From contig JAFDGA010000020.1 of assembly GCA_019309545.1 (NCBI GenBank), forward strand, positions 1-46,651: a stretch of DNA of 46,651 nucleotides. The letters are read 5' to 3'. The notes under the pieces are model-generated. The model worked only from the letters and a program-made list of their open reading frames with translations. It was not told the origin of the DNA and did no database searches. Shown piece by piece: positions 19,960 to 23,680 of this stretch. This DNA comes from Deltaproteobacteria bacterium (GTDB taxonomy: Bacteria; Desulfobacterota; Desulfobaccia; Desulfobaccales; Desulfobaccaceae). The position numbers were made by a program, and so were the translations under genes. Each line of letters begins with the position of its first letter. Positions within the stretch are counted from its first letter, which is position 1.

Positions 19960-22146
19960 ATGTTTAAACTCACGGCTCAAACCCGGGCGGGTAAAATAAC
20001 CGCAGGTCTGCTGATCGGTCTGCTGGTCGGGATGCTGACCCTGGGTTTGGACGCCAGCGGTCTATTAGAAGGTTATAGCCTCAAAACCCTGGATCTGTTA
20101 TTTCAGAAGGCTCTGCCTTCCCAGCCGGGTCACGCCGATATCGTCATAATTGAAGTGGACCAGGCCAGCCTGGAATTTTATCAGAACCAGGGCATCACCT
20201 GGCCCTGGCCCCGGCAGATGTATGGGCCGATCATAGACTATTGCCGCCTGGCGGGGGCTCAAGCGATCATTTTTGATGTTTTGTTTACTGAGAGCTCATC
20301 CTATGGCCTGGACGATGACCTGAGGTTGGCCCACAGCCTGAGCCAGGCGGGAAATGGGTTTCTGGCGATGTTTCTCACTCGCAACCCCAGGGAAAACAAC
20401 GCCCCAGATCAAGACTGGCTGCAAAGCCAGAGCCTGACCGTGGCCGGGGTGCCGCCGATGGTCAATCCAGGCTATCGTTCGGTCATTCTACCCATTCCAT
20501 CTTTGCGGAAGGCCGCGGCGGCCCTGGGCAATGTCGAGTGTTGTCCGGATAATGACGGGGTTTATCGACGCCTGCCGGTCCTGGTCCCTTTTCAGGGACA
20601 ATGGTGCCCGCAACTGGCGATGTCAGCCTTCTTATACCAACGCCAGCCGCTTACCCTGACCTGGCAGCCGGATGGCCTGATGATCAAAGGCGCGGCAGGC
20701 TCGGAGGCAAATCAACCGTCGTCCGCCGAATTGATTCCGCTATTGCCCGACGGCAAATTACTGCTCAAGTATCGTCCTGGGGCGCGGCCTTATCGGCGCT
20801 ATCCGGCAGCCAATGTGATTCAATCATATGTCCAATCCCAGGCCGGGCAGAAGCCTTTGCATCCCTTAAGCGAATTTTCCCAGAAATGGGTGCTGGTCGG
20901 GTTCACTGCTCCCGGCCTCTATGACCTCAAGCCCACGCCCTTGTCACCCATATATCCCGGGGTCGCCATTCAGGCTACCTTGTTGGATAACTTGTTAACC
21001 CGCGACTTCCTGATACCGATGGGAAGGGGAGGGGCCCTAATGCTGACCCTGGGGTTAGGCCTGGCCTCGGCTCTGACCGTGTTATGGGTTCCGGCGTTGT
21101 GGCTGACCTTGCTGTCGCTGATCGGTTATCTGGTGCTGACCATAACCCTGGCAGTGGTGTTGTTTGTCAGCGGGGTGTGGATGGATGCGGTGCCCCCCCT
21201 GGTAGCGGTGGTGTTTGGTTTCGGAGTGAGCGCGGCTTACAGCTATTCCACCGAAGGCCGGCAAAAACGTGCTATCCGGCGCATGTTTGCTCATTACATG
21301 TCCGAGGCCCTGATTCAGGATCTTGTCAAAAATCCGGGTAAACTGCGGTTGGGCGGGGAACGCCGGGAGATGACCATATTTTTTTCCGATCTGGCCGGTT
21401 TTACCGGCATCTCTGAGGGGCTCAGCCCCGAAGCGCTGGTTCCCCTGCTTAATGAATACCTGACCCGGATGACTGACATCATTATGGCCAGTGGAGGCAT
21501 CATCGATAAATACGAGGGTGACGCCATTATGGCCTTCTGGGGGGCTCCGGTTTTCCAGCCGGACCACGCCGGCCGCGCCTGCCTGGCGGCCCTGGAACAG
21601 CAACGGCAGCTTGAATTGTTGCGCTCCCAGTGGCAGGCTCGAGGATTACCCAACTTTGCCGCCCGCATGGGCATCAATACCGGGGAGGTAGTGGTCGGCA
21701 ACCTGGGGTCGGATACCCGCTTCGATTTCACTGTTATTGGCGACGCGGTCAATCTGGCTTCCCGGCTGGAAGGGGCCAATAAAAGTTATAATACGACCAT
21801 CCTGATCAGCGAAACCACGGCGGAACAGGCCGCGGCCCAGGTGGAGTTGCGAGAGATCGACCTGATTGCGGTCAAAGGTCGGGCGGCTCCGGTCCGGGTC
21901 TATGAGGTGTTGGCTCCGAAAGGACAGATAGTCGCAGAAATGGTCCAGGTCCGTGAACTCTTTGCCCAGGGGCTGGCCCGATACCGTCAGCAACGCTGGG
22001 CTGAGGCCCAGGAGTTGTTTCAGCAGGTGCTGGACCACCGCCCGGGCGATGGTCCGGCTCAGGTGTTTTTGGCAAGGTGTCAGCGTCTGAGTGGGCAGGA
22101 TCTGGGTCCGGACTGGGACGGGGTCTTCCGCCTGACCAGCAAATAG
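19960..22146 (+). CDS. Adenylate/guanylate cyclase with CHASE2 sensor
   Basis: A 728-residue membrane signalling enzyme. After one N-terminal membrane helix (about 12-32) comes a periplasmic CHASE2 domain (about 40-340; DIVIIEVDQASLEFYQNQG, RLAGAQAIIFDVLFTE). Three membrane helices follow (about 350-430). The cytosolic class III cyclase domain (about 465-650) keeps both metal-binding Asp (FFSDLAGFTG and KYEGDAIMAFWG) and the later DFTVIGDAVNLASRLE block. A TPR-like tail ends the protein. It should make a cyclic nucleotide in response to an unknown periplasmic signal. cAMP versus cGMP cannot be decided here. It starts 48 bp after the TPR gene. Confidence 0.92.
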   Translation: MFKLTAQTRAGKITAGLLIGLLVGMLTLGLDASGLLEGYSLKTLDLLFQKALPSQPGHADIVIIEVDQASLEFYQNQGITWPWPRQMYGPIIDYCRLAGAQAIIFDVLFTESSSYGLDDDLRLAHSLSQAGNGFLAMFLTRNPRENNAPDQDWLQSQSLTVAGVPPMVNPGYRSVILPIPSLRKAAAALGNVECCPDNDGVYRRLPVLVPFQGQWCPQLAMSAFLYQRQPLTLTWQPDGLMIKGAAGSEANQPSSAELIPLLPDGKLLLKYRPGARPYRRYPAANVIQSYVQSQAGQKPLHPLSEFSQKWVLVGFTAPGLYDLKPTPLSPIYPGVAIQATLLDNLLTRDFLIPMGRGGALMLTLGLGLASALTVLWVPALWLTLLSLIGYLVLTITLAVVLFVSGVWMDAVPPLVAVVFGFGVSAAYSYSTEGRQKRAIRRMFAHYMSEALIQDLVKNPGKLRLGGERREMTIFFSDLAGFTGISEGLSPEALVPLLNEYLTRMTDIIMASGGIIDKYEGDAIMAFWGAPVFQPDHAGRACLAALEQQRQLELLRSQWQARGLPNFAARMGINTGEVVVGNLGSDTRFDFTVIGDAVNLASRLEGANKSYNTTILISETTAEQAAAQVELREIDLIAVKGRAAPVRVYEVLAPKGQIVAEMVQVRELFAQGLARYRQQRWAEAQELFQQVLDHRPGDGPAQVFLARCQRLSGQDLGPDWDGVFRLTSK

Positions 22147-22976: not shown

Positions 22977-23107
22977 CCCCCCGCGGCTTAATGAGCTAAT
23001 AGTGGTGATCCGGTCTCCATCTTGCCTTAAGGTCTGGCAATGGTTAGAATTTCGTAAAACGACCGCGGCAACCGTTATATTAACTCCCGAAGAAGGAGGA
23101 GAGACCT

Positions 23108-23680
23108 ATGGCATCGAAAATTAACTGGCGGAGCGACCTGGACCAGGCCCAGAATTTGGCCCGCCAGGAGAATCGACCCATCCGGTTGGATTTTTTCAAT
23201 CCCTTGTGAATCGGCTGTCAACAGATGGATGCAGTTACGTATCCCCAGGAAGAAATTTTCAGATTTATTGAGGAAAATTTCATTCCGGTTCAGATCGAAT
23301 CCTCCAACCAGGAAGCGATGGATAAATTTAAGGTAAAATGGACCCCCATGCTGCTATTACTGGACGCTGAAGGAGGGGAACATTACCGCACTGTCGGCTT
23401 CCTGGCCCCGGAAGATTTTATCCCGACCTTCATGGTGGCCCAAGGCAGGTGGAATCTCGATATCGAGCGCTACCCGGAAGCGCCGAATTGGTTTGACCAG
23501 GTCATTGAGCATTATCCCAACAGCGAGGCGGCGGCGGAAGCGATCTTTTTCCGCGGCGTGGCCAGGTATAAAAAGGACCATGATCCTAATCCGTTGAAAG
23601 AGGTTTACGCTGTCCTGACCGAAGAATATCCACAGAGTAGCTGGACTAAGAAGGCCGCGCCGTACCGCCTGATTCCTTGA
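23108..23680 (+). CDS. Thioredoxin-like selenoprotein with UxxC motif (in-frame TGA)
   Basis: One reading frame from ATG 23108 (strong GGAGGAG upstream) to 23680 is broken only by TGA at 23207-23209, codon 34 of 191. The product reads RPIRLDFFNPL-[TGA]-IGCQQMDAVTYP, then ENFIPVQIESSNQEAMDKFK and VKWTPMLLLLDAEG. This is a thioredoxin fold in which the TGA stands exactly where the first Cys of a CXXC pair belongs (U-I-G-C). The cis-Pro region WTP is present. After about residue 115 comes a TPR-like helical tail (EAPNWFDQVIEHYPNSEAAA). A SECIS-like hairpin follows the TGA at the right distance. I read the TGA as selenocysteine. The alternative is a nonsense mutation or sequencing error, or a start at 23225, which would lack the active site. 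Confidence 0.85.
23207..23244 (+). promoter_or_regulatory. Candidate bacterial SECIS element
   Basis: Downstream of the TGA (23207-23209), GGATGC (23227-23232) pairs with GTATCC (23239-23244) in a 6-bp stem, with one G-U pair, around the loop AGTTAC. The apical loop starts 24 nt after the TGA and has G at its second position. Known bacterial SECIS rules ask for an apical loop about 16-37 nt from the UGA with a G in the first two loop positions, so the fit is good. A smaller hairpin CTGT/ACAG lies between. Confidence 0.65.

Follow-up and report, generated by a model that had tools for sequence, protein, structure and literature searches.

A predicted UxxC thioredoxin-like selenoprotein with a TPR-like tail in a Desulfobacterota genome

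In the window, by which we mean the whole 46.6-kb stretch of DNA that was analysed (46,651 nt), a reading frame opens at an ATG (position 23108) directly downstream of the ribosome-binding site AAGGAGGAG, meets a TGA after 33 codons, and then runs on for 156 codons in the same frame to a second TGA (Table 1). The ribosome-binding site was rated strong, in agreement with an earlier note on this DNA, and an AGGAG-type motif likewise precedes the ATG in nearly all orthologues. Translated with the first TGA as U, the product reads MASKINW...FFNPLUIGCQQMD..., with U34 where a thioredoxin CxxC motif has its first Cys, and a Cys three residues further on, at codon 37, as that note had proposed. The interval it had given for the feature, 23108–23244, was correctly positioned but covers just the beginning of the gene, whose frame ends at 23680. 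It had also anticipated that standard ORF calling would begin at the next in-frame ATG, 23225, and the mechanical ORF list does give 23225–23680 only; with gene callers that stop at UGA, the active site would be lost and the gene cut in two. When all six frames of the window were scanned for TGA codons with 100 or more open codons after them and, in the same frame at least 20 codons upstream, a start with a Shine–Dalgarno match, TGA 23207 was the sole site returned. A scan for sigma-70 promoters gave results at chance level, and Rfam at gathering thresholds found a tRNA and nothing else in the window.

Table 1 Coordinates of the features of the predicted selenoprotein gene within the window
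Feature	Positions	Strand	Details
Selenoprotein gene	23108..23680	+	190 aa with Sec34; stop TGA 23678–23680; translation with TGA = U
Shine–Dalgarno region GAAGGAGGAGAG	23091..23102	+	5–6 nt ahead of the ATG; read from sequence
TGA read as selenocysteine, codon 34	23207..23209	+	First position of the U-I-G-C active site
TGT, Cys37	23216..23218	+	Second (resolving) residue of UxxC; invariant in alignment A2
Bacterial SECIS-type hairpin	23227..23244	+	6-bp stem, 6-nt loop AGUUAC; fits the bSECIS model
Thioredoxin-like domain	23108..23437	+	Residues ~1–110 (to ~118 in the AlphaFold model); Pfam, AlphaFold, PDB matches DsbD-gamma, DsbH, 3f9u
W-T-P, cis-Pro position	23339..23347	+	Residues 78–80; W78, T79 and P80 invariant in alignment A2
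Helical TPR-like tail	23480..23671	+	Residues ~125–188; AlphaFold helices, sub-threshold TPR matches

The thioredoxin fold and the TPR-like tail suggested in the earlier note found support in Pfam, in a PDB profile search and in AlphaFold. Two Pfam families matched above cut-off (Thioredoxin_2, E = 1.6e-10; Thioredoxin_7, E = 6.3e-9), AlphaFold run on the alignment returned a model with pLDDT 93.4 and pTM 0.89, and PDB profile and structure searches identified DsbD-gamma, DsbH and a Bacteroides disulfide isomerase as solved relatives of the first part. We take P80 of the W-T-P motif to be the usual cis-Pro of the thioredoxin fold. In the tail, AlphaFold places helices at residues 125–135, 140–157, 161–173, 178–182 and 184–188; the solved relatives of this part were TPR segments of CpoB/YbgF and BamD, with model matches falling below threshold. 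Neither a signal peptide nor a membrane segment was seen when the protein was inspected by eye.

The in-frame TGA is shared by relatives across the phylum. A first protein search of 59 relatives' genomes gave 25 matches over the full or nearly full length, of which 24 had exactly one internal TGA and one had none. In a wider profile search of 395 Desulfobacterota genomes, matches were found in 96 at E ≤ 1e-18 and in 85 at E ≤ 1e-36, the latter being about a fifth of the phylum's sampled genomes. When 98 distinct Desulfobacterota relatives were read codon by codon (two of which, L097 and L098, align over the first 145 positions only), the codon aligned to TGA 23207 was TGA in 87, TGC (Cys) in nine, ACG in one and GAG in one. 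The homologues for which the earlier note had proposed to search, aligned across the TGA with U or C in that column, thus make up all but two of the set. Identity of the TGA-bearing relatives, which belong to many genera, ranges from 78% down to 35%, and a codon shared by relatives this far apart rules out, for practical purposes, a sequencing error. Across six ortholog pairs, dN/dS ranged from 0 to 0.20 in the part upstream of the TGA and from 0.07 to 0.31 in the part downstream; since these values are low on both sides, the two halves are, as judged from sequence, under purifying selection as one protein.

Sec forms span nearly the whole group in a quick tree of the relatives, which has long branches, and the Cys cases L037 and L084 are nested inside it. 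Family f58 consists of Cys or no-Cys forms, most of them also without the second Cys (C-x-G-S). In its full-length members L085–L093, Cys stands in place of Sec and, in most, Ser in place of the second Cys, two members having neither Cys; a loss of redox function in these relatives is possible. Full-length copies were absent from the same-genus genome G002 and from the sister genus (G003–G006), and the protein is therefore dispensable in close kin.

The host genome (2.43 Mb in 96 contigs, 99% complete) contains all four genes that the earlier note had listed for checking: selA (614 bits), selB (376 bits, the top hit within the translation-factor family and alone in exceeding the cut-off), selD (369 bits) and the tRNA-Sec gene selC (77 bits, anticodon TCA). 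With all of these found, the Sec trait is complete. The selD gene has one in-frame TGA of its own (L054, G000:C16 28979–29896), and so does a formate dehydrogenase alpha-subunit match that lies below its family cut-off (L143, G000:C23 22084–22812); both are probably selenoproteins as well.

These observations bear on whether TGA 23207 could be a real stop, arising in a pseudogene or from a sequencing error, with the frame from 23225 translated alone or dead. The downstream ATG is there, and a standard ORF finder reports it. A protein started at that codon, however, would be deprived of the first strand, helix and active site of the thioredoxin fold, the same TGA recurs in many genera, the 33 upstream codons are conserved with low dN/dS, and the genome has the Sec machinery; we regard a real stop as having a negligible probability.

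Downstream of the TGA, a 6-bp hairpin lies just where the earlier note had described it, with a stem of GGATGC (23227–23232) and GTATCC (23239–23244) enclosing the loop AGTTAC (23233–23238), which opens at the 24th nt past the TGA. The published bSECIS model specifies a loop of 3–9 nt, a stem of 4–16 bp and a G at loop position 1 or 2, together with a UGA–loop spacing of 16–37 nt and a minimum free energy of −7.5 kcal/mol or lower (PMC13188914). Comparison with this model, for a hairpin that the note had wanted checked by a bacterial SECIS search, showed agreement on every point: six base pairs, a loop of 6 nt with G as its second base, 23 nt between TGA and loop, and −8.2 kcal/mol over 50 nt. 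For the single sequence, this energy is no better than that of shuffles (z = −0.05), so that the case for the hairpin rests on cross-species comparison. A hairpin that obeys the rules, with an energy no higher than −5 kcal/mol, was present downstream of 79 of the 87 Sec codons (the remaining eight Sec genes missing the energy rule) and of none of the 11 non-Sec codons, and it occurred in 13% of control windows drawn from these genes. Two silent sites within the hairpin are conserved in the closer relatives, with Gly41 encoded by GGT in 19/19 and Thr44 by ACG in 23/23, while Gly and Thr codon use elsewhere in the same genes is mixed. RNAalifold on 23 sequences recovered the same six pairs, and two of these show changes in both partners. 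Codon 41 covaries with the Tyr45 codon in the wider set (GAT with TAT 43 times, GGT with TAC 24 times, GGT with TAT twice), GAA or GAG on the codon 41 side pairs with TTT in a paired codon change, and GAC occurs with Ala44 GCG in 8/8 cases; these counts are inflated by kinship, and the tree allows just 2 to 4 independent contrasts between codon 41 and the Tyr45 codon and 1 for GAC with GCG. Almost all of these contrasts, if not all, go the way that is expected. The family thus offers a natural experiment, in which Sec forms retain the SECIS hairpin and its codon pairing and Cys relatives have lost the hairpin. In family f28 (L133–L136, L138–L141), the motif after Sec has become NTGPYS and a perfect AATACG-GGTC-CGTATT hairpin is kept, predicted to be an alternative SECIS architecture within the same gene family.

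Translation of the TGA as an amino acid other than selenocysteine, by Trp recoding or plain read-through, would leave the frame open, as would any reading of the codon. Against this, the gene and many of its orthologues themselves end in TGA, the column's alternative residue is Cys (9/98) and never Trp, and both the Sec machinery and a SECIS are present, leaving such recoding with a vanishingly small probability. Selenocysteine insertion at TGA 23207 can accordingly be ranked, in silico, as a near-certain prediction.

Thioredoxin-fold selenoproteins are known to abound in Desulfobacterota (PMC1794560, PMC9312934). The closest known kind to the protein described here is the predicted 'thiol:disulfide interchange protein' selenoproteins, a UxxC family with the PF13098 domain (PMC13188914 Table 1, PMC1794560) whose counterpart 'Trx-like 2' corresponds to cd02953, DsbD-gamma, also with UxxC (PMC2398784); PF13098/cd02953 UxxC selenoproteins have been reported in Geobacter and Syntrophus (PMC13188914, PMC1794560, PMC2398784), which, like the genomes analysed here, belong to the old Deltaproteobacteria. 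Our protein shares with this family the domain (PF13098, 41.7 bits versus a gathering score of 27), Sec at the first UxxC position (U34-I-G-C37) and a DsbD-gamma-like fold. If the PF13098 UxxC representatives, such as WP_011366075.1, have a TPR-like tail, the gene is an ordinary member; if they do not, it belongs to a separate subfamily. Distant thioredoxin-domain similarity (E from 8e-12 to 1.5e-6) was seen to the NCBIfam models TsoB (NF045694), VPGUxxT (NF041382/NF041383) and Trx7/PDZ (NF041199), whose motifs and architecture differ and which gave 27–44 bits versus curated cut-offs of 275–805; no NCBIfam selenoprotein model reached its cut-off, the best scoring 44 bits versus 805. The C-terminal (gamma) domain of DsbD and DsbH have the same fold and CxxC position (Z 12–13), whereas our protein has Sec for the first Cys, an extra helical tail and no export signal. 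A search of the open-access literature, where absence is no proof, returned no paper naming a Trx-TPR selenoprotein, and there is a modest chance that the thioredoxin-TPR architecture constitutes a distinct, unnamed subfamily. That it represents a phylum-wide unnamed family, in which a UxxC thioredoxin joined to a partner-binding, TPR-like module would serve specific clients as a selenium-dependent redox chaperone or reductase in anaerobic bacteria that metabolise sulfur, seems to us decidedly unlikely. The gene adds a widespread thioredoxin-TPR selenoprotein to the Desulfobacterota and leaves the picture of how selenocysteine works unchanged.

Our overall explanation, to which we assign a probability of roughly 0.95, is that of a 190-aa selenoprotein with Sec34, made by SelB- and hairpin-dependent insertion and serving as a cytosolic UxxC reductase with a partner-docking tail. 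SelB with Sec-tRNA(Sec) would bind the hairpin just downstream of UGA 23207, and Sec would be inserted at position 34 in place of termination, as the comparative evidence indicates. The product is probably cytosolic, because no signal peptide or membrane segment was seen. For the reduction of disulfides or related oxidised sulfur species, Sec34 would supply the attacking selenol(ate) and Cys37 the resolving thiol, a reaction that we infer from the UxxC motif, the fold and the known chemistry of UxxC thioredoxins. The helical TPR-like tail would most likely dock a protein partner. The Sec codon, the SECIS and the fold are supported by computation, and the role is most likely that of a cytosolic UxxC disulfide reductase with a partner-binding tail.

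We also considered that the protein might be the Sec counterpart of YbbN/CnoX, a redox chaperone passing its clients to GroEL or another chaperone, instead of a general disulfide reductase. Both have a thioredoxin domain followed by TPR helices, and YbbN provided the second and fifth whole-length Foldseek matches (3qou, 3qdn). The full-length superposition is nevertheless poor (rmsd 11–12 Å, TM 0.38–0.41) and full-length similarity low, the tail is far shorter than the TPR part of YbbN, the redox motif differs, and the thioredoxin domain is nearer to DsbD-gamma and DsbH than to YbbN; we consider a YbbN-like role unlikely.

The resemblance to DsbD-gamma, which is the closest relative of the thioredoxin domain, and a host group that is sulfate-reducer-like both fit another role, as an electron-transfer partner of a membrane DsbD/CcdA-like protein or a specific reductase of sulfur metabolism whose tail recognises its partner. 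This alternative is unlikely, given that DsbD-gamma is periplasmic while our protein has no signal peptide, and that no neighbouring gene is conserved across the order. Within the window, the gene is flanked by purine-salvage and phosphatase genes; in relatives from the order, a macro-domain-like gene lies downstream in 16 loci, and the window's own neighbours differ. A conserved operon was rejected on these grounds, and no functional link was drawn from the neighbourhood. The genes surrounding the window's copy keep their order in one relative alone, L043 of the same genus. The nearest relative with a name is a contig of Desulfobacca sp. STE_27, on which the protein is 78% identical and gene order is kept, so that the window comes from a Desulfobacca-like member of the Desulfobacterota. 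Scanning contigs with the single protein returned only the same-genus relative and, in an Acidobacteria contig, a short match to the tail, which the family profile did not confirm; a plasmid search gave no match.

Elsewhere in the window, a 728-aa ORF (19960–22146) looks, by eye, like a membrane sensor to which an adenylate/guanylate cyclase domain has been fused. The same order also contains a second, tail-less thioredoxin subfamily of ~110–125 aa with a TGA at the same active-site position (EGUPHC), represented by L154, L152, L150, L151 and L041 (genomes G017, G023, G018, G026 and G022), in which a possible GGTC...GACC hairpin lies downstream of the TGA. The host genome's own tail-less form is a Cys version (CPHC, L142).
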